A DNA stretch of 38,481 nt, taken from an uncultured bacterium. Lineage in GTDB: Bacteria > Acidobacteriota > Thermoanaerobaculia > Thermoanaerobaculales > Thermoanaerobaculaceae. Shown here in pieces: positions 23,963-34,504 of this stretch (its first letter is position 1; every line of letters starts with the position of its first letter). The translations under genes and the position numbers were made by a program. Where the stretch lies: NCBI GenBank assembly GCA_937924755.1, contig CALEVZ010000082.1, positions 1 through 38,481 of the forward strand. The letters run 5' to 3'. The notes below the pieces were generated by a model. The model was not told where the DNA came from. It saw only the letters and a program-made list of their open reading frames with translations, and did no database searches.

Positions 23963-25903
23963 ATGGTCAGACCCTTGCTTGCCATGCTCTTCGCCCTTTC
24001 CACCCCCTGCGTGGCCGTCGCCCAGGCGGTCACCGAGTGGTCCACCAGTCGGGGGGTGGCGGTGGCGATCATCGAAGTGCCCGGGGGCGACCTGGTTCAC
24101 CTGGCCGCTTTGGCCCCGCCCGAGACCACCGTCCCCGCCGTCCTGGCCGGCTTCCCGGTCACAACCCACCCCGTCTCCCTGGGCCTGATCGTCGAGAGCA
24201 GCGTTCCGGTCTTCGCCGGTGGGACGGCGCTGCGGGAGTTGGCCCTGGCCGTGTCCGACCGGGGGGCGGCAGCGGTGGTCGTTTTGGGCAGTGCGCCGGC
24301 GCGGGAGATGGGCGTGGCTGGCCAGGCCCTGGAAAGAGTGCCCCTGGCCGCCGCACCGCGACGGCCATGCCTGCTGGCCGAGGGAGAGGTGTCGCTGGTG
24401 CGCGGGTCCCCCGAGCGCCTGGAGGTGGTCCTGCCCCTCCCCGGGCCAGAGGATCCCCGCTTCGACCTTCTCCCGGCCCTCGAAGCGTGGGTGCGCCGCC
24501 GGCTGGCGCAGCGCTGGCCGGGAGTGTCCACCGCCGTGGAGCTGCGAGATACATGCTCTTGGTTGCTCATCCGCGTCCCCTCCGGCGGCGAGCCGCCGCG
24601 GACCCAGCTGGCGCCGCTGCGCGAGGCCATCCAGTTGCTGGCGACGACAGCCCCCAATGCCGCCGAGGTGGAGGCGGTAGCCGCCATGGTCGACCGCCGA
24701 CGAGCCGCCTGGGCGGTGGACGGGCGGGCGGCGGCGCGGGAGCTGGTGCTGCGCCGGGCGGTAGGGGGGCGGGTTGCGTCGGCGCTGGCGCCGCCGCTGC
24801 TGGACTCCGACGCGCTGGCCGGCCTGGCGCGGGGGGTGCTCGCCGGTCATGTGGGCGAAGCCGTGCTGGTGGAGGCCGAACGCCGCCCCGTCGATGATGC
24901 CCCGGAGGTGTTGGACAACGGCGTGCTGCTGGCCTGGCGCTGGGTCTCTTCGTCCCTGGGCACGGTGGCGGTGGCGCTGGGGGGCGTCGACCCCGACTTT
25001 GGCCACGCGGCGTTGCGGGGCCTGGCCGATGAAGCGGCCCGGGAAGGGTGGCAAGCTCTCCTGGAGACCCTGGCTGGGGTTCCGGCGGCGGCTGTGGCCG
25101 TGCCTGCCGACGACCTGCCGGCCGCCCTGGAAACCGTTGCCTCGGTGCTGTTGGAGCCCGCTGTGGCGGCTGGGCCAGAGCGGGAGAGCCAGTTGGTGGC
25201 CGCCCTGGGGCTGTCCGCGGAGCTCACCGGCGGGGCGGTGGCAGTGGCGGTGGCAGCGCCCGCCGAGGCGGATGTGGTGCGGGAGGCGGCGGCGAAATTC
25301 TTCAGCCAGTTGCCGCCGGGCAGGGTCCGAAGTACGGCGCCACTGGAAAAGGGACTCCAGCACTCCAGCACCACCGGCGAAGCGACGATCCAGGCGGCGG
25401 TGGAGCTCCGCCCCGATCTCGCCGGCTGGCTGGCCGGGGAGGTCTTGGCCAACCGCCTGCGGCAGCACGCTAGGGCGCAGGTTCGCTGGTTGGCTCTCCC
25501 GGGGCGCCTGGTGCTGGAGGTGACGGCCCGCGCAGAAGGGCATGTGCCAGGCCTTGACGCCCGCCTGGCCGCCCTCTGGCCGTCGCTGCGGGTTGCCGCC
25601 AGCGCCGAGGAAGCGGCCGCCGCGGGGGCATCGCTGCGGGCATTATTGTACGGCGACCCCGCCCGGGCGGCGCTGCGCACCGCCGCGGCGCCGTTTCTGC
25701 CTACCTTGCCGCGCCAGGAGGAACTGTTAGCCGTGGAGGCGCGAGAGGTATCGGCAGCGCTGGCGGCGTTGCCGCCCTGGGCAGACCTCCCGCGCCTGGC
25801 CCGAGGGCCCGAGCCATTGCTGGTCACCCCTCCCCCTCGGCCCACTGTGCGACAATCCCCGCCCCGACGCCCTGGAGGGGCGGGGGGAGGGAGCTCATGG
25901 TGA
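23963..25903 (+). CDS. Secreted protein with degenerate M16 (insulinase)-like architecture
   Basis: A 646-residue protein with a signal peptide (MVRPLLAMLFALSTPCVAVAQ). Two segments resemble M16 peptidase halves: VVREAAAKFFSQLPPG matches the helix-turn that closes an M16 domain, and WLAGEVLANRLRQHAR resembles the subunit-interface helix. The zinc motif HxxEH and its inverse are absent, so if it belongs to the family it is the non-catalytic partner. No second M16 gene lies in the window. The ATG at 23963 is 6 nt after TATCAT, suggesting a leaderless message. The 3' end overlaps tyrS by 7 nt. The family assignment is tentative; the reading frame is sound. Confidence 0.6.
   Translation: MVRPLLAMLFALSTPCVAVAQAVTEWSTSRGVAVAIIEVPGGDLVHLAALAPPETTVPAVLAGFPVTTHPVSLGLIVESSVPVFAGGTALRELALAVSDRGAAAVVVLGSAPAREMGVAGQALERVPLAAAPRRPCLLAEGEVSLVRGSPERLEVVLPLPGPEDPRFDLLPALEAWVRRRLAQRWPGVSTAVELRDTCSWLLIRVPSGGEPPRTQLAPLREAIQLLATTAPNAAEVEAVAAMVDRRRAAWAVDGRAAARELVLRRAVGGRVASALAPPLLDSDALAGLARGVLAGHVGEAVLVEAERRPVDDAPEVLDNGVLLAWRWVSSSLGTVAVALGGVDPDFGHAALRGLADEAAREGWQALLETLAGVPAAAVAVPADDLPAALETVASVLLEPAVAAGPERESQLVAALGLSAELTGGAVAVAVAAPAEADVVREAAAKFFSQLPPGRVRSTAPLEKGLQHSSTTGEATIQAAVELRPDLAGWLAGEVLANRLRQHARAQVRWLALPGRLVLEVTARAEGHVPGLDARLAALWPSLRVAASAEEAAAAGASLRALLYGDPARAALRTAAAPFLPTLPRQEELLAVEAREVSAALAALPPWADLPRLARGPEPLLVTPPPRPTVRQSPPRRPGGAGGGSSW
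25857..25885 (+). repeat. GC-only stem-loop directly before the tyrS ribosome site
   Basis: Nine-base perfect arms CCCCGCCCC (25857-25865) and GGGGCGGGG (25877-25885) enclose an 11-nt loop. The right arm abuts the GGAGG ribosome site at 25886-25890, 6 nt before the tyrS ATG. It lies inside the last codons of the M16-like gene. It could control tyrS translation or act as a processing stop. Confidence 0.5.
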
Positions 25904-27147
25904 GTCCGGTCAAGGCGCAGATGGAGCTGCTGCTCAAAGGGTGCGTGGAGGTGGTGCGGGCGGAGGACCTTGAGGAACGACTGCGGCGGGCGCAGGGCGA
26001 GGGGCGGGGGCTGACGGTGAAGGTCGGGTTTGACCCTTCGGCGCCGGACCTGCACCTGGGCCACACGGTGTTGATCCGCAAGATGCGCCACTTTCAGCAG
26101 TTGGGCCACCGGGTGGTGTTCCTGATTGGGGACTTCACCGGGATGATCGGCGACCCCACGGGGAAGAAGACCACCCGCCCGCAACTCACCCGTGAACAGG
26201 TTCTGGCCAACGCGGAAACCTACAAGCGGCAGGTCTTCAAGCTGCTGGATCCGGCTACCACGGTCATCGACTTCAACTCCCGCTGGCTCGGTACACTGAC
26301 CTCGGAAGATTGGATCCGTCTCACCGCCCGGGTGACCCTCGCCCAGATGCTGGAGAGGGATGATTTCTCCCGGCGCCTGGTTGGCGGGGAGCCCATCGCC
26401 CTGCACGAGCTGCTCTACCCGGTGGCCCAGGCCTACGATTCGGTCGCCCTGGCCGCCGACGTGGAGCTGGGGGGCACGGACCAGCTTTTCAACCTGCTGG
26501 TGGGGCGCGACCTCATGGGTAAGCTGGGGCTGGCTCCGCAGATCGTCATGACCGTGCCACTGTTGGAGGGGTTGGATGGTGTCGAGAAGATGTCCAAGTC
26601 CCTGGGCAACTACGTGGCCGTGGAGGACCCCCCGGAGGAGATGTTCGGCAAGCTCATGTCCATCTCGGACCCGCTGATGTGGCGCTACTGGACGCTGCTC
26701 ACCGACCGTAGCCCGGGGGAGGTGGCGCAGCTGCAGGGGCTCGTGGGTGAGGGCCGCCGTCACCCCATGGAGGTGAAGTTCGAATTGGCCCGCACCATCA
26801 CCGCGGACTTTCACGGAGAGGCGGCAGCGGCAGCGGCCGAGGCCCACTTCCGCCGGGTCCACCAGCGGGGGGAGGCGCCCGAGGAGATCGAGGTGCGGCG
26901 GCTTGTAGCTGCGGGGAATACCCTCGGCGTGGTCGAGTTGCTCGTCTCCCAGGGGCTTGCCCCCTCCAACTCGGAGGCCCGCCGGCTCATCGCCCAGGGG
27001 GGGGTGAAAGTGAACGGCGAGGTGGTGCAGGACGGGCGGGCCACAGTTGCCACCACGGTCGGCACCTCGCACCTGCTGCAGGTGGGCAAGCGCCGCTTCC
27101 TCAAGGTGGCGTTCGTTGCCGCCGACGGCGGTGCAGCAGCAGAGTGA
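25897..27147 (+). CDS. tyrS: Tyrosyl-tRNA synthetase
   Basis: A 416-residue class I synthetase that charges tRNA-Tyr. The HIGH-type motif is HLGH in SAPDLHLGHTVLIRK (about 48-62). GDFTGMIGDPTGKK and the tyrosine-specificity region QAYDSVALAADVELGGTDQ follow, then KMSKS in VEKMSKSLGN. The C-terminal S4 RNA-binding domain (SNSEARRLIAQGGVKVNGEVV, about 350-400) is complete. The KMSKS wording and length place it with the TyrZ-type enzymes. The ATG at 25897 has GGAGG upstream and overlaps the M16-like gene stop. The 3' end overlaps the convergent membrane gene by 47 nt. Confidence 0.97.
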   Translation: MVSPVKAQMELLLKGCVEVVRAEDLEERLRRAQGEGRGLTVKVGFDPSAPDLHLGHTVLIRKMRHFQQLGHRVVFLIGDFTGMIGDPTGKKTTRPQLTREQVLANAETYKRQVFKLLDPATTVIDFNSRWLGTLTSEDWIRLTARVTLAQMLERDDFSRRLVGGEPIALHELLYPVAQAYDSVALAADVELGGTDQLFNLLVGRDLMGKLGLAPQIVMTVPLLEGLDGVEKMSKSLGNYVAVEDPPEEMFGKLMSISDPLMWRYWTLLTDRSPGEVAQLQGLVGEGRRHPMEVKFELARTITADFHGEAAAAAAEAHFRRVHQRGEAPEEIEVRRLVAAGNTLGVVELLVSQGLAPSNSEARRLIAQGGVKVNGEVVQDGRATVATTVGTSHLLQVGKRRFLKVAFVAADGGAAAE

Positions 27148-27538
27148 GGAGCCACGCCACCCCGGCCCCGGTGTGCACCCATCCGGCGAGGGCACGCCCG
27201 GTGGGCTGGGCCAACACCTGCACCAGTACCCCCGACGCCACCATCACCCCGGCCAGCCACCAGGCCAGCGCGCCGCTGGGTGCGCGCTCCCCAGCAAGCC
27301 TCGCCGGCCATACGTGGGCCACCCAGACGGCCCCCAGGGCGAAGACCAGCAGCGGAGCCAGCAGCAGGTGGAGGTGCTGCAGGTAGGGCTGCCAGGGGTG
27401 ATTGACGACAGCATAGGGATCGGTGCGCGGCCACAGGTAGCGCAGCACGCCGTAGGCCAACCCACTGCCCCCTACCAGGCCCACCGCGACGTCCAAGAGG
27501 CGGCGCACCGGGGACGGAAAGGAAATCGGCTCACTCAT
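27101..27538 (-). CDS. Four-helix, His-rich membrane protein, putative di-heme cytochrome b
   Basis: A 145-residue protein with four transmembrane segments (about 14-34, 53-77, 92-110 and 119-136). Histidines cluster at or near the helix ends: His47, His55, His57, His75, His122 and His136. The pairs His55/57-His75 and His122-His136 are spaced like heme ligands on opposite membrane faces, as in small cytochrome b subunits of ferric-reductase-like and FMN-associated systems. Heme binding is inferred, not shown. The ATG at 27538 overlaps the stop of the FMN-binding gene by four bases (ATGA), so the two are coupled. It would pass electrons from quinol to the exported flavoprotein. Confidence 0.72.
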   Translation of the reverse strand: MSEPISFPSPVRRLLDVAVGLVGGSGLAYGVLRYLWPRTDPYAVVNHPWQPYLQHLHLLLAPLLVFALGAVWVAHVWPARLAGERAPSGALAWWLAGVMVASGVLVQVLAQPTGRALAGWVHTGAGVAWLLTLLLHRRRRQRTPP

Positions 27539-28071
27539 TGTCGCAGCGCGACGGCGGCGTGGATGGCGAGCACCCGGCGAACGGCCTCCACGGTGGCGGT
27601 AGCCGTCAAGGTGGCGCCCGCCACCGGGCGGATGCCGCGCTTGAGGGCCAACTCATGGTCCAGCTGTCTGTTCTGGAACTGGGCGTACCACTCCTGACGG
27701 GGGACGTACTCCATGGGCTCGGCAAACGACAGCAGCTCCACCCGCACAACCGCACCCTCAGGGGTCAGGGCCACCAGCAGGGTGGCGCCCAGGGTGCGCA
27801 CCCGATGGGTGTCGGTGTAGGCCACCCCCAGCAGCTGGCCGTCGCGGAAGGCCTCGTAGCGCATCACCATGGCGGAGGCCACAGGCGTGCCCGCCCGGCG
27901 GCGTACCTGCAGTCGCTCCTCCTCGGTGAGGAAGAGGGGCTGCCGGCGCACCTGCGCCCCGGGAAAGGCCAAGGCCACCGCCTCCTCCGCCGAGAGCAAC
28001 CGCCCGGCGGAGGAGGGGACGGCCATTGCCGTCCCCGCCAGGGCCAGGATCAGGACCCGCTCAAAAGACAT
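27535..28071 (-). CDS. Exported FMN-binding-domain protein (predicted ApbE flavinylation target)
   Basis: A 178-residue protein. Residues 1-23 are a signal peptide (VLILALAGTAMAVPSSAG). The C-terminal FMN-binding domain ends in PVAGATLTATATVEAVRRVL, which contains the AGAT form of the ApbE recognition motif; Thr154 is the predicted covalent FMN acceptor. The family is shared with NqrC, RnfG and extracytosolic flavin reductases. The ATG at 28071 overlaps the porin stop; a TTG two codons earlier is possible but less likely. apbE itself lies two genes upstream in the same operon, and a putative cytochrome b follows with a four-base overlap, which supports a quinol-to-flavin electron path outside the cytoplasm. 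Confidence 0.85.
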   Translation of the reverse strand: MSFERVLILALAGTAMAVPSSAGRLLSAEEAVALAFPGAQVRRQPLFLTEEERLQVRRRAGTPVASAMVMRYEAFRDGQLLGVAYTDTHRVRTLGATLLVALTPEGAVVRVELLSFAEPMEYVPRQEWYAQFQNRQLDHELALKRGIRPVAGATLTATATVEAVRRVLAIHAAVALRQ

Positions 28072-29386
28072 AGCCAAGCCCCAGGTTGACGGAGTTGACG
28101 CCGGTGCGGGCGGCGGTCTGGACCCGCTGCCAGTCGGCCTTGAGGACGATCTGGTGAATGGGTTGGAAGCTCAGCCCGAGGGTGAGGATGCGCTGGTCGT
28201 TAGCGGGGTTGGCGGTGAAACCGGCGGGCACGCGGGCCTGGGTATCGAGCTCCTCCCAGCGGACGAAGAGTTCCAGCGCCGCACGGGAGGGCAGAAGATC
28301 CCAGGCCGCCTCTCCGTACCAGCCCTTCAGGCGCGACCCCAGCGAGGCAGAGCCAGTAAGGCCGAGGGCGCGGTTGGCCGCGGCCGCATCGGACAGCCGC
28401 GCGTGCACGGTAAGGGCGCGCAGGGTGAGGGCCCGCCAGCGCCAGTCCAGGTGGGCTTCCACCAGGGTGGTACGAGGGTCGGCAGCGGCGGCTCTGAAGG
28501 CGGGGCGCTCCTGCGCCGCGCCGCCGCTGTACAGGGAGCCCCCCACCAGCAGCCCCGGGATCCCCACGTGGTCCACCCGCACCACCCAGGCCAGATCCTC
28601 GGCCGCTGCCTTGGCCCCCTTCTGCCGTCCGCCTCGCCACCCCCCGGCGGAGAACCTGGAGGCATCCATGCCGTTGACTACGAAGGCGCGGTACGCCAGC
28701 GGGCCCACCTCGCCGAAAACGCCCAGGCCGTTCTCCCGCCAGGTGGAGGGAATGAGGGTCCGTTCCACCGCCGGGCGCACCGCTCCGTGAAAAACTGTGG
28801 GCTCGTGCAGCTCGTTGATCAGGCCCACCGGCAGTAGCACCATTCCCCCCCGCAGGTTGAATTGGGGGCGCCAGAGGTAGTCGATGTAGGCGAACTCCAC
28901 GCTCACCTCGCCCACTCCACCGGAGGTGGTGCCGTGTTCATACTCGATTTCGGTATTGAGGAGGAACCGGTCGTCGAACTTGTAGCCCAGGTACACCACC
29001 GCCCGCCAGAAGTCCACCTCGGCCCGGCGACCGGAGGGGAGGCCGTCCTGGCGTCGGGCGGCGGGATCCTGGTAGATCATTTCCCCATACCCACCCAGGG
29101 AAAGGCCGCTTTTGACGCCGTACACCTTGGCGGCGGAGGGCGCCAGTCCCCAGGCCTTGGTCTCCTCCGGCGGCGGCGCCTCACCCGATCGCAGGCGCTC
29201 CACCTCCTCGGCGAGGGCCTCAAGCTGGCGCTGCAGCTCGGCCAGCTCGCCGTCCTCGCGCGCCGCGACGGCGGCCCTCAACGCGGCGATCTCGCGCTCC
29301 AGCTCCTCCAGGCGCGACTCGGTGGATTGTCCGAAAACGTTTCCGGCGGTTGCAAACAAGAGAAACAGGGTCAAAACGATGCGCAT
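28061..29386 (-). CDS. Outer-membrane porin with N-terminal coiled coil (OprO/OprP or DcaP-like)
   Basis: A 441-residue protein with a signal peptide cleaved near residue 19 (NVFG|Q). Residues 22-67 form a heptad-rich coiled coil (SRLEELEREIAALRAAV, AELQRQLEALAEEVERL) like the stalks of some trimeric porins. The rest is alternating amphipathic strands with Gly and aromatic residues (LSLGGYGEMIYQ, RAVVYLGYKFDDRFLLNTEIEYEHG) and the chain ends GLGYVF, the C-terminal Phe signature of outer-membrane barrels. The ATG at 29386 follows gtgagga and overlaps the apbE stop by 16 nt. In this iron operon a role in ferric-complex entry is an inference. Confidence 0.87.
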   Translation of the reverse strand: MRIVLTLFLLFATAGNVFGQSTESRLEELEREIAALRAAVAAREDGELAELQRQLEALAEEVERLRSGEAPPPEETKAWGLAPSAAKVYGVKSGLSLGGYGEMIYQDPAARRQDGLPSGRRAEVDFWRAVVYLGYKFDDRFLLNTEIEYEHGTTSGGVGEVSVEFAYIDYLWRPQFNLRGGMVLLPVGLINELHEPTVFHGAVRPAVERTLIPSTWRENGLGVFGEVGPLAYRAFVVNGMDASRFSAGGWRGGRQKGAKAAAEDLAWVVRVDHVGIPGLLVGGSLYSGGAAQERPAFRAAAADPRTTLVEAHLDWRWRALTLRALTVHARLSDAAAANRALGLTGSASLGSRLKGWYGEAAWDLLPSRAALELFVRWEELDTQARVPAGFTANPANDQRILTLGLSFQPIHQIVLKADWQRVQTAARTGVNSVNLGLGYVF

Positions 29387-30444
29387 GGCTTCCTCACTTT
29401 CCTTACGTCGGCTGCACGATCATTGGCGGGGAGGATGGTGGCCGGCAGGCGACCCTCGAGAAGAGCTCGCGAGACTCGTACCTGGGCGTCGCCGCGCTGC
29501 ATCTCCACCACCAGAACTCCCACCTGCGTGTGTTGCTCGGCCCAGGCCAATGCCCGGGCGGGTCCAAGAACGAACAGGGCGGTGGCGAGGGCGTCAGCCT
29601 CGGCGGCGCTGGCCGCCCACACCGAGACTGATCCAAAATCGGCGGCCGGCCGGCCCGTGCGGGGGTCGAACAGGTGCGGGCGCCGGCGGGGGCGGCTCCC
29701 GTTGCCGGAGGTCGCCAGCGAGCCGGCGGCCAGGCATACGCGGGCGATCTCGCGGGCGCGCTGGCGCGGGTGGGCGACGGCGACCTCGTACCCGCTGGGG
29801 CTGGGCAACACCGCCACCTGCCCGCCAAAGTCGAGCACCGCCCCCGTGGCACCGGCTGCAGTCAGGGCGGCGAGCGCCGCGTCGAGTCCCACCCCCTTGC
29901 CGAACCCCCCTTCCTCCAGGCGCACTCCGGGGTGCAGCCGCACAGCTGTCCGCGGGGTGAGGGTGAGGAGCGCCAGCCCGCTGGCTTGGCGGGCTGCAGC
30001 CAGTTCCGCGCGGCCGGGGCGGCGGCCGGTGCCGCGCACGTCCCAGGCCTGAAGCAGAGCGCCGATCGCCGGATCGAACGCGCCGTCGGTCTCCCGCCAG
30101 ATTCTGGCTGCCAGCTGGAGATCGGCGGCCAGCTGCGGGCTGAGCGCAAACTCCACTCCGGGGGGGTGGCGGTTGAGGGCGGCCAACTCGCTGTCGGTGC
30201 GCCACGTCGACAGCCTTTCCTCGACCGCCGCGACGGCGCCCACCGCCGCCTCGCTGGCGGCCAGAGCCAGCGGTCGGGAGGCGGCCGTCACCTCAAGGCG
30301 CAGGACCGTGCCCATGGCCGCGACCTGGCGCTCGAGAACGGCCGCGGGCAGGGCCGGCGGCGCCGCGGCTCCCAACAAAGCAGGCAACAGAGTCGCTGTC
30401 GCAACCCGTGCCCACACCTCGCAACCGAGCGGCATGCCTCCCAT
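29371..30444 (-). CDS. apbE: ApbE, FAD:protein FMN transferase
   Basis: A 357-residue exported enzyme that moves FMN from FAD onto a Thr of a partner protein using magnesium. The N-terminal region (residues 11-35) is a hydrophobic signal or lipid-less anchor. Conserved ApbE blocks are present: DGAFDPAIGAL (120-130), EEGGFGKGVGLDAAL (177-191), GAVLDFGGQ (201-209), LATSGNGSR (243-251), HLFDPRTGRPA (257-267) and AEADALATALFVLG (281-294) with metal-site candidates Asp284 and Thr288. The ATG at 30444 has gaggt upstream; a second ATG three codons in is also possible. The natural substrate is the FMN-binding protein encoded two genes on. It lies 34 nt after the short DtxR-like gene. Confidence 0.93.
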   Translation of the reverse strand: MGGMPLGCEVWARVATATLLPALLGAAAPPALPAAVLERQVAAMGTVLRLEVTAASRPLALAASEAAVGAVAAVEERLSTWRTDSELAALNRHPPGVEFALSPQLAADLQLAARIWRETDGAFDPAIGALLQAWDVRGTGRRPGRAELAAARQASGLALLTLTPRTAVRLHPGVRLEEGGFGKGVGLDAALAALTAAGATGAVLDFGGQVAVLPSPSGYEVAVAHPRQRAREIARVCLAAGSLATSGNGSRPRRRPHLFDPRTGRPAADFGSVSVWAASAAEADALATALFVLGPARALAWAEQHTQVGVLVVEMQRGDAQVRVSRALLEGRLPATILPANDRAADVRKVRKPCASF

Positions 30445-30478
30445 TGGCTTTACCTCGCCTTACCCGCCGCCCGAATCG

Positions 30479-31045
30479 TCACTGGCGCCGTCCGGCCGCC
30501 AGCAGGCAGGTGTTTTCGCAGAAGTCGCAATGCCGGTCGTTGGGGCAGGCCGCCACGGTATCGTGAAAGGCGCGCAGCGCCGCGCGGGCGGCGGGGTGGG
30601 GGGAGCGCAGGAAGCGGATCAGGCGCACCAGCGCCGCCGATGTCTCTTCCGAGAGGAGGTGCTCCACCTTGCAGGCGTCGACGGCGGCGGTTTCACCGCT
30701 GACTTCCAGGATTTCAGTGAGAAAGACCCGCACCACCTCGCGCTTTCCCGCCACTCGCGCCACCAGGTCCGCCCCCTCGCGGGTGAGGTGCAGGTGCAGC
30801 TTGGCGTCGTGTTCCACCAGTCCCGCCTCGTGCAGGGAGCGCAACTGGAGGGAGGCGGCGGCGCGGCTGACTCCCAAGTAGCGGGCCACGTCGGCGGCCC
30901 GCGGCTGGTTTCCCAGCCGGCCGAGGGCGGCCACGGCCAGCAGGTAGTGAGCCGCCGAATGGGTGATTTCGTTGGCCTCGAAGGCGCGCCACAGGTGGGC
31001 GGGCGCAGCGGAGGCGGGGCGTCTTTTGCTGCCTTCTCGTTCCAT
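30479..31045 (-). CDS. Short DtxR-like regulator with Cys-rich C-terminal tail
   Basis: A 188-residue protein. Residues 30-90 form a winged helix (HYLLAVAALGRLG, ADVARYLGVSRAAASLQLRSLHEAGLVEH). The dimerisation helix keeps the Cys125-Glu128-His129 set (DACKVEHLLSEE) that corresponds to Cys102-Glu105-His106 of DtxR. The other metal site is lost: the His and Glu of the RHRLLER helix are replaced by Arg/Val-type residues (KREVVRVFL). The FeoA-like third domain is absent. In its place is a tail with Cys167, Cys173, Cys176 and Cys180, a plausible Zn or Fe-S site. The ATG lies 1 nt after the stop of the full-length DtxR-like gene, suggesting duplication and divergence into a different sensor. Confidence 0.82.
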   Translation of the reverse strand: MEREGSKRRPASAAPAHLWRAFEANEITHSAAHYLLAVAALGRLGNQPRAADVARYLGVSRAAASLQLRSLHEAGLVEHDAKLHLHLTREGADLVARVAGKREVVRVFLTEILEVSGETAAVDACKVEHLLSEETSAALVRLIRFLRSPHPAARAALRAFHDTVAACPNDRHCDFCENTCLLAAGRRQ

Positions 31046-31046
31046 C

Positions 31047-31748
31047 TCACCACTCCAGCAGGGGACGCAGGTAGATCCCCGCAGCGATGTCGTCCTCCAG
31101 GGCGAGCAGCGTGCGATCCACCTCGACGACGAAGGAGGGCTTCCGCTGCTTGAGCACCAGCACGGCGCCCGGGGTGACGCCCAGATCGGTCAGTTGTTCC
31201 AGCCGCTCGCGGTGGCGCGGGGCCAGCAGAACCACCTTGCCACGCTCGCCCGGCGCCAGGTCGCAAAGGCGGGCGATGAGCGGTTCGACCTTGCGCCCCG
31301 CCAACGCCTGACAACACTCCCCCGGGGGAATCGCGCGCCCGTGCGGGCATACCGGCGGATGTCCCAGGAAGGAGCACACGGCTTCGGTGGCCTCGGGGGA
31401 GAGCAGGTGTTCGATCCGGCAGGCCTCTTGCTCGGTGGTTTCGAGGGGCAGATCGAGCACCTGGTTGAACAACACCTCGGCCAGGCGGTGCCGCCGGGCC
31501 GCCGCCCGCGCCTCCTCGACGCCCGCAGGGGTGAGCGACAGCAGGTCTCCCTCCAGATGCACCAGCCGCTGCTCGACCAGCTCCTGCACCACGCCGGCCC
31601 ACCCCTCCGAGGCGCCGGCGTGAATGGTGTGCGCCAACTCGTCGACCGTCAGGCGCACCCCGGCCTCGGCGGCGCTCCACAGCTCTTCCAGCACTTCCTC
31701 GCGGGCGGCCGCGGCGGTGCGCCCCAAGATCGAGAGTCCCTCTCTCAC
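31047..31748 (-). CDS. DtxR/IdeR-like metal-dependent repressor with FeoA-like domain
   Basis: A 233-residue iron- or manganese-sensing repressor. The winged helix is within residues 17-80. The metal-binding dimerisation domain carries His87, Glu91, Cys110, Glu113, His114 and the signature CSFLGHPPVCPHGRAIP (125-141) with His130. The SH3/FeoA-like domain occupies residues 155-230 (DLAPGERGKVVLLA, LEQLTDLGVTPGAVLVL). The GTG at 31748 follows aaggaggg and overlaps the small Cys-rich gene stop (GTGA). Lying inside the feoB operon, it probably represses that operon when iron is plentiful. No separate feoA gene is present. Confidence 0.9.
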   Translation of the reverse strand: MREGLSILGRTAAAAREEVLEELWSAAEAGVRLTVDELAHTIHAGASEGWAGVVQELVEQRLVHLEGDLLSLTPAGVEEARAAARRHRLAEVLFNQVLDLPLETTEQEACRIEHLLSPEATEAVCSFLGHPPVCPHGRAIPPGECCQALAGRKVEPLIARLCDLAPGERGKVVLLAPRHRERLEQLTDLGVTPGAVLVLKQRKPSFVVEVDRTLLALEDDIAAGIYLRPLLEW

Positions 31749-31936
31749 GACGCCCTCCTTCTGAGCAGCCTCGCGAGGAGCCTCGCGAGGCTGGAGGTGA
31801 CGACAAAACGGTAGTGGCAGTGCGGGCAGCACACGGTTCCGCAGCGCTTGGCCAGCGGACAGCCGGAGGGGCATGACTGCCGCTCGGCAAAACGGCCGCC
31901 GCACAACGGGCAGGAGAGCATGCGCGGATCGCTCAC
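31745..31936 (-). CDS. FeoB-linked small Cys-rich protein (63 residues)
   Basis: A short gene easily missed by length filters. The GTG at 31936 overlaps the feoB stop (GTGA), and its own stop overlaps the start of the DtxR-like gene (GTGA), so all three are translationally coupled. The 63-residue product has eight Cys: Cys9, Cys12, Cys22, Cys26, Cys32, Cys36, Cys37 and Cys40, in CPLC, CPSGC and CCPHC groups. A basic amphipathic helix (SSLARLLARLLRRRAS) closes it. Two zinc ribbons or an iron/Fe-S site are possible, with the helix lying on the membrane or on FeoB. The tight coupling argues that it is an accessory part of the Feo transporter. Confidence 0.82.
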   Translation of the reverse strand: MSDPRMLSCPLCGGRFAERQSCPSGCPLAKRCGTVCCPHCHYRFVVTSSLARLLARLLRRRAS

Positions 31937-33909
31937 AGGGCCACCTTCAGAGCGCGCAGGATGAAGTTCAACAGCCCGCCGACCAGAAAGGCGAAAGGAA
32001 CGATGAAGGCGACCATGGCCAGCGCCGTCTTCGCGCCGCGTTCCTTGATCATCATGAAGAAGTTGGCGATGCACGGGACGAAGAGGGTGATCACCACCAG
32101 TGAGACGATTGCCTGCACGCCGTCCAGCTGGCCGTCCTGGCGCAGGACGAACAGGCCGGCCGCACCGTAGTCGCGGCGCAGGAAGCCGATCAAGAAAGCA
32201 TCGGCCGCTTTTGCGGGCAGCCCCAGGAGATGGACCACGACCGGCCGGGCGGCGCGCTCGATGGCGGGGAGGGCGCCGCTGGCATCCAGCACGAACAGGA
32301 GCAAGGTACCCAGAATGAAGAGGGGAACGGCTTCCTTCAGGTACCACTCGGTGCGGGCGGCGGTCTTGATGAGGATGTTGGCGAGACTTGGCGTGCGCAG
32401 CGGGGGCACTTCCAGCAGGAAATCCGAGCTGCGGCCGGGCAGCAGGCGCGCCGCCGCCCACCCGACCCCGAACAACGTGGCCATCACCACCCCCCCCCAG
32501 ATGAAGGTACCTAGCGGCGACATCGCCGCCAGGATCGCCAGGATCACCCCCAGCTGCGCGGAGCACGGCACGCCAAGAGCCAGAAGGAGGGTCACCACCA
32601 CGCGCTCCTTGCGAGTGGGGAGAATGCGGGTGGTGAGCGTCGCCATGGTGTCGCAGCCCAAACCCAACACCATGGGCAGCACGGCCTTGCCGTTGAGCCC
32701 CATGCCCCGAAACACGCGGTTGATCACCACCGCCAGCCGGGGCAGATACCCGGAGTCCTCGAGAACTCCGAAAAAGATGAAAAAGGTGCCCACCACTGGC
32801 AGGACAATACCAATGGCGTAGGTGATGGCCATGGTGACCACGCCGTAGGGACCGACCAGCAGCTGTCTAAGCCACTGCCACGGGGCGAGGCGATCCACCA
32901 GGCTAATCACCCAGGGGTTGATGACCTCGCCGAAGAGTCCGTCCTCGACCAGCCCCACCAGGGTGCCCGCCCCGAAAACGCCGACGAACCCGTAGGCCAG
33001 AAACAGCACCAAAAGGAGAACGGGAACGCCCCACAGCGGGTGCATGGTGAGGGCGCCGAGCCGGTCCCTCAGCGATCCGGCGACGGCTCGATCCTGGTGG
33101 AAGACCTGCCGCAGCAGGCGGGCGACGCAACGATGGCGAGCGCGGGAGATCACGCTGGCGGCGCGGGTGCCCAGCTCGGCCTCCAGGGCGGCGCGTCGCC
33201 GGCCAATGGCCAGCAGCCCCTCCTCGCTCACCCGCCCACGCAGCCAGCTTGCCAGGGAAGGGTCACCGGCGAGCAGCATCAACGCGACCCCGTAGCGCTG
33301 GTCACCCAGTTCCTTTGGCAGCAACGCGGCCACCTCCGCCGCCGCCCGCTCGACGCTGGCGGGATAAGCGACCTCGCAGGAAGCCACCGCCGCCTCGGCC
33401 AGTCGGCGACCGATGGCCTCCAACCCTGTACCCCGGGTGGCGGTGGCGGGTATGACCGGGATTCGCAAAAGGTTCGCGAGCTCCCCGCTCTCCACCCGCA
33501 CGCCGAGGTCGCGCGCCTCATCCTGGAGGTTGAGAACCAGAACCTGCCGCCGTTTGAGCTCGGCCAGCTGGACGGTCAGGTAAAGCGTGCGTCGGAGATT
33601 CTTGGTATCTCCCACCTGGATAACGAGAGCTGTCGGCTCCGCGAGGAGGAGATCCCGGGTGACCTGCTCGTCCTCGGACTGGGGAGTGAGGGAGTTAGTG
33701 CCTGGGGTATCGATGAGCTGCGGCCGCCCGGGAAGATGCGCGGCTGTACCGCGAGTAACTTCCACCGTGGTACCCGGGTAGTTGGAAACGTTCACGTAAC
33801 GGCGGGTGAGGGCCCCGAAGATGACACTTTTTCCGACGTTAGGGTTACCCACCAGGAGCACCGATAGGACGGTGCTGTGGGCGGCGGGAGAATCGGCGGC
33901 GTCGGGCAC
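31933..33909 (-). CDS. feoB: Ferrous iron transporter FeoB
   Basis: A 658-residue inner-membrane transporter for Fe(II). The N-terminal G domain has G1 GNPNVGKS (21-28), a G2 Thr in NYPGTTVE, G3 DTPG (67-70) and G4 NLQD (127-130). A helical insertion domain follows (about 165-285). The membrane part contains two gate repeats with Cys: LGLGCDTMA and GVPCSAQ in the first, LFVPCIANF in the second. GCDTMA differs from the usual GCNVPA. The GTG at 33909 has no visible ribosome site, though the frame and the G1 position make it the best start. It leads the eight-gene iron operon; no feoA gene is next to it. Confidence 0.96.
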   Translation of the reverse strand: MPDAADSPAAHSTVLSVLLVGNPNVGKSVIFGALTRRYVNVSNYPGTTVEVTRGTAAHLPGRPQLIDTPGTNSLTPQSEDEQVTRDLLLAEPTALVIQVGDTKNLRRTLYLTVQLAELKRRQVLVLNLQDEARDLGVRVESGELANLLRIPVIPATATRGTGLEAIGRRLAEAAVASCEVAYPASVERAAAEVAALLPKELGDQRYGVALMLLAGDPSLASWLRGRVSEEGLLAIGRRRAALEAELGTRAASVISRARHRCVARLLRQVFHQDRAVAGSLRDRLGALTMHPLWGVPVLLLVLFLAYGFVGVFGAGTLVGLVEDGLFGEVINPWVISLVDRLAPWQWLRQLLVGPYGVVTMAITYAIGIVLPVVGTFFIFFGVLEDSGYLPRLAVVINRVFRGMGLNGKAVLPMVLGLGCDTMATLTTRILPTRKERVVVTLLLALGVPCSAQLGVILAILAAMSPLGTFIWGGVVMATLFGVGWAAARLLPGRSSDFLLEVPPLRTPSLANILIKTAARTEWYLKEAVPLFILGTLLLFVLDASGALPAIERAARPVVVHLLGLPAKAADAFLIGFLRRDYGAAGLFVLRQDGQLDGVQAIVSLVVITLFVPCIANFFMMIKERGAKTALAMVAFIVPFAFLVGGLLNFILRALKVAL

Positions 33910-33952: not shown

Positions 33953-33981
33953 AGGGTAGTCTCTTCCGGCATCCTTGTCAA
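33953..33981 (-). promoter_or_regulatory. Sigma-70-type promoter of the feoB operon
   Basis: On the minus strand TTGACA (33981-33976) and TACCCT (33958-33953) are exactly 17 bp apart. The -35 is a perfect consensus. The predicted start is near 33946, giving a leader of about 37 nt before the feoB GTG. Confidence 0.72.
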
Positions 33982-33994
33982 GCATGCTTTACCA
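33975..33994. promoter_or_regulatory. Palindrome over the feoB -35 box, candidate metalloregulator operator
   Basis: An inverted repeat centred between 33984 and 33985 has the perfect core AAGCATGCTT and eight of ten paired positions over 20 bp. It covers the whole -35 hexamer, so a bound repressor would block RNA polymerase. It does not match the textbook Fur or DtxR boxes. The likely binder is one of the two DtxR-like proteins of the operon or the Fur-family protein encoded just upstream. Confidence 0.5.
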
Positions 33995-34069: not shown

Positions 34070-34504
34070 CTATTGGTCGTCACCAGCGTTGATGAGCTCT
34101 CCCTGGATGGAGATGGAGATGTAGCTGGGCCGGAAACCCTTCTCCTGGCAGATGCGGCGCAGGGATTCGTCCACATCGGCGTCCCAAAATTCGATGATCC
34201 TGCCGGTGGAGGTGCACACCATGTGGTGGTGACTGCGGCCCGGGGTGACGCGCTCGTAGACGTAGTGCTCGCGGCCCAGACGAGATTTGCGGGCGAGCCC
34301 GGCCTGCACCAGTAGATCGAGGGTGCGATAGATGGTGGCCCGCGAGACTTTCTTTCCCTGGTTGCGAAGCTGAAAGAGCAAGGTGTCGGCGTCCAGGTGG
34401 CCGCTGGTGTTGAAAAGCTCGGCGAGGAGGAGGAGGCGCTCCTTGGTGACTTTTTGATTATTGTCACGAAGAAACTGGATGAAGTACTTCTCGGCGCGCT
34501 TCAT
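34070..34504 (-). CDS. Fur-family metalloregulator
   Basis: A 144-residue Fur-family repressor. The DNA-binding winged helix includes VTKERLLLLAELF and the recognition helix SRATIYRTLDLL (54-65). The metal site region is GRSHHHMVCTSTGRIIEF, with His92-94 and Cys97; a further likely ligand is His36. The second Cys of the usual CxxC is Thr here and no C-terminal CxxC exists, so the structural zinc site is missing, as in some Fur, Irr and Mur proteins. The ATG at 34504 follows cggagggg, and is preferred to an upstream start that lacks one. Its 3' end lies just upstream of the feoB promoter. Whether it senses iron, manganese or peroxide is not decidable. Confidence 0.9.
   Translation of the reverse strand: MKRAEKYFIQFLRDNNQKVTKERLLLLAELFNTSGHLDADTLLFQLRNQGKKVSRATIYRTLDLLVQAGLARKSRLGREHYVYERVTPGRSHHHMVCTSTGRIIEFWDADVDESLRRICQEKGFRPSYISISIQGELINAGDDQ

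Follow-up and report, generated by a model that had tools for sequence, protein, structure and literature searches.

A portable envelope flavin module joined to a feoB operon in an acidobacterial genome: a candidate for assimilatory ferric reduction

Clusters of flavinylation genes that lie beside iron transporters have been read as systems of assimilatory iron reduction; they include PepSY-, MsrQ- and DsbD/DUF3570-like proteins with VIT1, and P19/FTR1 with a flavin mononucleotide (FMN)-binding protein (eLife 2021; PMC8238504). DUF4405, a membrane cytochrome described with six transmembrane helices, also occurs in apbE clusters (mSystems 2024; PMC11334425). That reduction in the periplasm followed by import through FeoB exists is known from the FsrB-FeoAB pathway of Bradyrhizobium, in which periplasmic ferric reduction by FsrB (COG3182, kin of FoxB) and subsequent uptake by FeoB were shown genetically; even there, no reductase has been assigned to inorganic ferric iron (PMC10760861). 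In Geobacter, Fur-regulated porin genes occur with feoAB (X-feoA-feoA-feoB2, psp; Genome Biology 2004; PMC545781). The route from ferric iron to Fe(II) for FeoB remains unknown in most Gram-negative bacteria. Here we analyze a stretch of 38,481 nucleotides (nt), hereafter the window, from an uncultured bacterium of the Thermoanaerobaculaceae (Acidobacteriota; contig CALEVZ010000082.1). It carries an eight-gene operon that joins feoB to genes for an envelope flavin module, and this module is a concrete and widespread candidate for that route.

The operon is best read as two separable units joined under one presumed promoter, and we consider it probable that together they carry out metal-regulated assimilatory ferric reduction that feeds Fe(II) to FeoB. 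The first unit would provide regulated uptake of ferrous iron and comprises feoB, a Cys-rich protein, a DtxR-FeoA regulator (DtxR1) and an MntR-like regulator (DtxR2). The second, a putative electron-transfer module of the envelope, comprises apbE, a porin, an FMN protein and a four-helix cytochrome. All eight genes lie on the minus strand at 27101-33909, downstream of a fur gene, in the place and order given by the initial annotation of this DNA, and no frame is interrupted by stops. Third-position guanine-cytosine content is consistent, and codon-position content is uniform over the eight genes. The spacings are +11 nt (feoB-cys), -4 (cys-dtxR1) and +1 (dtxR1-dtxR2) in the first half, and +34 (dtxR2-apbE), -16 (apbE-porin), -17 (porin-fmn) and -4 (fmn-four-helix gene) in the second; the small overlaps and gaps of at most 34 nt reported earlier thus measure -17 to +34 nt.

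The true unit is a portable module of four genes, apbE, porin, FMN protein and four-helix cytochrome, which is present in Acidobacteriota and about nine other phyla. A first search for the four-helix gene gave 8 matches in 37 genomes of the order and 101 matches in 396 genomes of the phylum. When the neighborhoods of 48 copies, that of the window included, were inspected, apbE, the porin gene and the FMN gene adjoined the four-helix gene in most, with apbE either first or last. Used as a single query against genome contigs, the FMN protein of the window found no relative. A second search, with a five-member alignment of the FMN protein against 84,980 species genomes, yielded 80 loci, part of which are the same contigs as in the four-helix set. 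These loci come from Acidobacteriota, Planctomycetota, Myxococcota, Elusimicrobia, Bdellovibrionales/Oligoflexia, Kiritimatiellia/Verrucomicrobia, Nitrospiria, Ignavibacteriales, Krumholzibacteriota and Binatia. A porin gene is found in 75 of them, the four-helix gene in 67, apbE in 53, fur in 18 and feoB in 9. Because the module is conserved across phyla, a chance arrangement is ruled out.

The 80 loci were picked by the FMN protein, not by feoB, and total 1.13 megabases (Mb). Assuming 1.5 feoB and 3 fur copies per 3.7 Mb, one expects 0.46 feoB genes and finds 9 (Poisson 2e-9, relatedness ignored); for fur, 18 were found where 0.92 were expected, again with relatedness ignored. The FeoB proteins beside modules belong to at least four lineages, mostly with 25-47% identity between them: the type of the window, which L081 and L158 also have; another that is common to L045, L099, L104, L112, L116 and L155; and those of L149 and L150. 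On a maximum-likelihood tree of the porins the feoB label requires 7 changes, at least 5 of them on well-supported branches. What is more, three loci, L097, L128 and L158, have a gene for the iron permease FTR1 beside the module (Pfam E 1e-28 to 1e-40). Different iron transporters have therefore been placed repeatedly with the same module, and the link of the module to iron is real and recurrent. The iron role, which had been proposed from gene order, gains support from this enrichment and from the FTR1 neighbors.

Comparison of gene neighborhoods contradicts the proposal that the eight genes form a fixed union. The full order was found only in the window and in L013 and L016, both from a single sister genus, and in all three the four module genes come after dtxR2. 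The order fur-feoB is kept in same-family genomes, and eight of these, with FeoB 71-76% identical to that of the window, have fur-feoB-cys-dtxR1 and then no flavin module; dtxR2 is present in seven of the eight. For the family, homologous feoB loci that lack apbE and the FMN gene thus refute a fixed union in the way that the initial annotation had itself specified, and most modules occur without feoB. In L091 and L092 the last gene of the operon is followed directly by a convergent tyrS, and antisense frames point likewise in L085, L086 and L090. In the window, a tyrosyl-tRNA synthetase gene (tyrS, 25897-27147, named from its sequence) converges on the operon from the far side. As tyrS also lies near the module in L097 and L159, where feoB is absent, the neighborhood of module and tyrS may be older than that of module and feoB.

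The four-helix membrane protein (27101-27538, minus strand) has 145 residues and is presumed to be a di-heme cytochrome b. In 43 sequences of the family H57, H75, H122 and H136 are invariant, and H47, in a conserved HPWQP loop, is nearly so. The AlphaFold2 model (predicted local distance difference test, pLDDT, 93.7) has helices at 9-35, 50-81, 87-108 and 112-141, the first two invariant histidines (H57, H75) falling on helix 2 and the last two (H122, H136) on helix 4. Since helices 2 and 4 of a four-helix membrane bundle run parallel, the four histidines would form two pairs, H57/H122 and H75/H136, at matching levels, one near each membrane face, as in cytochrome b. The C-terminus HRRRRQRTPP suggests that both termini are cytoplasmic, which would put H57/H122 on the periplasmic side. 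Among the Foldseek candidates, the top rows by VIA-align were the designed di-heme protein 4D2 (Z 11.7), cytochrome b6 (11.2) and the hydrogenase cytochrome b HyaC (11.0). The electron route of the initial annotation, from quinol through a di-heme protein to the FMN protein, is thus favored by a cytochrome-b-like model with four invariant histidines.

Foldseek with the model returned nothing at E 0.001, the family profile matched no sequence of a solved structure, and the protein alone has no Pfam match. DUF4405 (PF14358) is matched weakly by 14 of the 43 family members (best E 0.0035) and by the window protein not at all, cytochrome b561 is matched weakly at the family level, and PepSY is absent among the 25 listed of 29 Pfam families that match the alignment. 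We did not file the protein as DUF4405, because four helices are modeled where six are described. In at least five loci (L134:9577-10089, L149, L157, L158 and L166) an unlike small membrane protein, with invariant H73, H75 and H88, takes the place of the four-helix gene after the FMN gene. Profile comparison (E 0.24) did not support the idea that this replacement, whose carriers include Elusimicrobia and Nitrospiria, is a remote homologue of the four-helix protein.

Next to the presumed cytochrome gene lies that of an exported, RnfG-like FMN-binding protein (27535-28077, minus strand). FMN_bind is matched at E 0.01 by 49 of 53 family members, the family profile finds RnfG (E 2e-7), and the flavinylation motif G[AS][TS][LI][TS] is present in 52 of the 53, as GATLT in the window. 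We predict that FMN is attached covalently to the Thr of GATLT by ApbE. This residue had been numbered Thr154, which is correct when the ATG at 28071 is taken as the start; counted from the TTG it is Thr156. ApbE itself (29371-30444, minus strand), the FAD:protein FMN transferase, scores 192.3 bits on PF02424 (cut-off 25.6). It is the only ApbE of the genome, and a genome search detected no further FMN_bind protein; more divergent ones could escape this search because the FMN protein of the window itself scores below that threshold. L098, L099, L105, L107 and L159 have a second apbE-like gene, in opposite orientation, immediately downstream of the module.

Between these two genes is that of an outer-membrane porin (28061-29386, minus strand), which is conserved in module loci and combines an N-terminal coiled coil with a beta-barrel of the OprO/OprP type. 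The AlphaFold2 model (pLDDT 88.8) aligns by VIA to OprO with Z 26.8 (310 residues, root-mean-square deviation 3.2) and to OprP with Z 26.3, and Porin_O_P is matched by 6 of 43 family members. In one Acidobacteriota clade a small lipoprotein-like gene without a Pfam match precedes the porin gene (L119:6936-7337 and relatives, 12 loci); in that clade apbE does not adjoin the module.

The iron-uptake half begins with feoB (31933-33909, minus strand). The GTP-dependent ferrous iron transporter passes TIGR00437 with 357.9 bits (cut-off 315.65) and has its G domain and Gate domains (FeoB_N, Gate, FeoB_C). A 58-residue Cys-rich protein (31745-31921, minus strand; CPLCG..CPxGCPL..C..CCPxC) is kept with feoB in the family. 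The two regulators described as DtxR-like both match Fe_dep_repr_C, with one refinement: the first, dtxR1 (31047-31748, minus strand), joins a DtxR-type metal-binding domain (Fe_dep_repr_C, 82 bits) to a C-terminal FeoA (44 bits). The second, dtxR2 (30479-31045, minus strand), reaches 39.1 bits on Fe_dep_repr_C in Pfam (cut-off 27). Its N-terminal Fe_dep_repress helix-turn-helix scores 22.4 bits (cut-off 26), with MarR_2 and other winged-helix models matching too, and its best model class is MntR (NCBIfam PRK11050, 58.9 bits, below the cut-off). In the alignment a C-terminal tail of four cysteines, C-x6-C-x2-C-x3-C in most relatives, is conserved; such a tail is unusual for an MntR-like regulator, and it could bind a metal or a cluster. 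The first gene of the neighborhood, fur (34070-34504, minus strand; Pfam FUR, 87.5 bits), encodes a protein that is intact except that VCTSTG stands where relatives have VCVQCG and the C-terminal CxxC is also gone. Without its CxxC motifs, the structural zinc site of this Fur seems to be lost.

Upstream of feoB lies the palindrome GGTAAAGCATGCTTGACA (33976-33993, minus strand), whose right half contains TTGACA, the -35 hexamer of the presumed feoB promoter. Comparison of relatives gave TGTTAAGYATRCTTGACA as the family consensus before feoB, again with TTGACA at -35 spacing in the right half. The sister genus and the eight related loci that have no module all keep this operator before feoB. A sigma-70 promoter scan of the operon region found none; the -35 element is visible only through the relatives, and the -10 element is weak. 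The window holds no operator copy beyond 33976-33993, and this single metalloregulator-type operator, placed before feoB, adds to the support for an iron role.

Copies elsewhere extend the picture. The sister genus has a second one before dtxR2-apbE-porin-FMN-four-helix gene, and in a genome of another family (G004) the operator precedes a stand-alone apbE-porin-FMN-four-helix module (L015:12260; score 24.8 vs 18.6 for the best unrelated site). In G013 dtxR2 itself has a weaker copy upstream. In the genome of the window (G000) a second operator with 2 mismatches (L203:2548; G000:C55:7047) lies before the gene of a TonB-dependent receptor (L203:3053-5311), and G012, of another family (L208), has a site before a similar receptor. 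These positions predict a regulon of feoB and dtxR2 together with the flavin module and outer-membrane proteins. Of 37 genomes, 17 have a DtxR2 orthologue, and 14 of these carry operator sites with at most 2 mismatches; of the 20 that lack the orthologue, 1 does (Fisher 1.5e-6, relatedness ignored). This co-occurrence, inflated by relatedness, makes DtxR2 the most likely protein to bind the operator. A Fur box is not favored for the window site, which is unlike the Fur consensus in form and tracks DtxR2. Perfect copies were also seen upstream of an alginate-export-like outer-membrane gene in G034 (L204:2478) and, in G029 (L206:2847), in the spacer that separates a desaturase-like gene from an outer-membrane-protein-like frame.

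In the mechanism that we consider probable, shortage of iron (or manganese) would free the operator of the feoB promoter from a DtxR-type repressor, most likely DtxR2, and the eight genes would be transcribed. The four-helix protein, holding two b hemes, would accept electrons of the quinol pool, carry them across the inner membrane and pass them to the periplasmic RnfG-like protein, with its FMN attached by ApbE at the Thr of GATLT. The OprO-like porin, or else a TonB receptor from the predicted regulon, would admit ferric iron; the flavin would reduce it, and the resulting Fe(II) would be imported by FeoB. Of this scheme, the gene order, the protein families, the recurrent iron partners, the modeled four-helix fold with its invariant histidines and the common operator are results of computation, and the hemes, the covalent FMN, the direction of electron flow, the substrate and the identity of the binding regulator are inferred. 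A stronger version, to which we give slightly less than an even chance, is that the module is an undescribed assimilatory ferric reductase of about ten phyla, built from a small four-helix di-heme cytochrome, an ApbE-flavinylated RnfG-like carrier and a dedicated OprO-like porin and coupled to FeoB or to FTR1 according to need; in the gene order of the window it would be run through a new operator, TGTTAAGYATRCTTGACA, by a DtxR-family repressor whose Cys tail may bind an iron-sulfur cluster. Since the parts are few and both an electron route and an operator are predicted, each step of the module can be tested.

Several observations weigh against assimilatory ferric reduction as outlined here. 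About nine-tenths of the module loci lack a neighboring feoB, and FeoB is therefore no obligatory cis partner of the module; most are without fur as well. Z values of 11-12 fall short of a decisive level for helical bundles. The FMN protein of the window alone scores 17.7 bits for FMN_bind (Pfam cut-off 22), and the residue before its GAT is Ala, a position held by Ser or Thr in many relatives, the reference site type being [ST]GA[TS] with Thr/Ser as acceptor. Because the porin fold resembles phosphate and anion porins, iron as its cargo is conjecture. The protein that reads the operator could be DtxR1 or Fur instead of DtxR2, and the signal may be Mn(II), since regulators with Fe_dep_repr_C include manganese sensors.

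The scarcity of feoB beside modules would suit a respiratory or redox-balancing outlet whose electron acceptors would lie in the periplasm or outside the cell and might be iron minerals, with fur and feoB nearby reflecting control by iron and not uptake. Several known systems use flavinylated carriers in respiration (PMC8238504), and a porin with a periplasmic coiled coil could join an electron conduit. We think this outlet unlikely: the recurrent partners are Fur, FeoB, FeoA and FTR1, no recurrent terminal reductase or multiheme neighbor was seen (most neighbors were not annotated singly), and the same operator stands before feoB operons and before the stand-alone module. Less likely again is a system for another redox-active metal or ligand (manganese, copper, or the breakdown of ferric chelates for another purpose), in which the MntR-like DtxR2 would sense Mn(II). 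The fit of DtxR2 to MntR models and the anion-selective fold of the porin point that way; on the other hand, FeoB, FTR1 and Fur all belong to iron families, FeoA is part of the other regulator, and no manganese transporter was seen as a recurrent neighbor.

The adjacency to feoB might also be neutral packing of genes between fur/feoB and tyrS, with no common function. The module can be missing from the same spot in relatives, and the modules that have tyrS and lack feoB indicate that local rearrangement is common. We regard this as very improbable, given that adjacency to feoB recurs in several phyla and FeoB lineages, that genes overlap in the window, that FTR1 stands in elsewhere, and that the operator is common to the stand-alone module of G004. 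Assimilatory ferric reduction accounts best for the recurrent partners and the shared operator, and it provides a working annotation for gene families that are mostly unnamed.

Set against described systems, the locus resembles the clusters of PMC8238504, some of which are likewise under Fur control or have TonB receptors near, in that ApbE and an extracytosolic FMN protein lie beside iron transporters. The novelty claimed for the union is reduced accordingly, as flavinylation beside iron transporters was published in 2021 for VIT1, P19/FTR1 and TonB receptors. The differences are the 145-residue four-helix partner, presumed to bind two hemes, the pairing with FeoB or FTR1, an OprO-like porin in the core and a DtxR-type operator; neither FeoB nor a porin is mentioned in the main text of that paper. 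The DUF4405 and FezC cytochromes, for both of which heme has been shown (PMC11334425), are likewise small, His-rich membrane proteins, and the window protein differs from DUF4405 in having four helices instead of six. FsrB belongs to another reductase family, COG3182, and no flavinylated carrier is described with it (PMC10760861). Like the Geobacter operons, the window has a porin gene and feoB under one metalloregulator; unlike it, those operons list no apbE, FMN protein or cytochrome b, and their operator is a Fur box and not the palindrome (PMC545781). A paper on Feo evolution mentions neither ApbE nor flavins (PMC8749426), and among open-access papers on FeoB with flavinylation or ApbE, or on FMN-binding proteins with porins, none describes this union. 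As far as the open-access literature shows, what is new is the module with its four-helix cytochrome and porin, its pairing with feoB or FTR1, and its operator.

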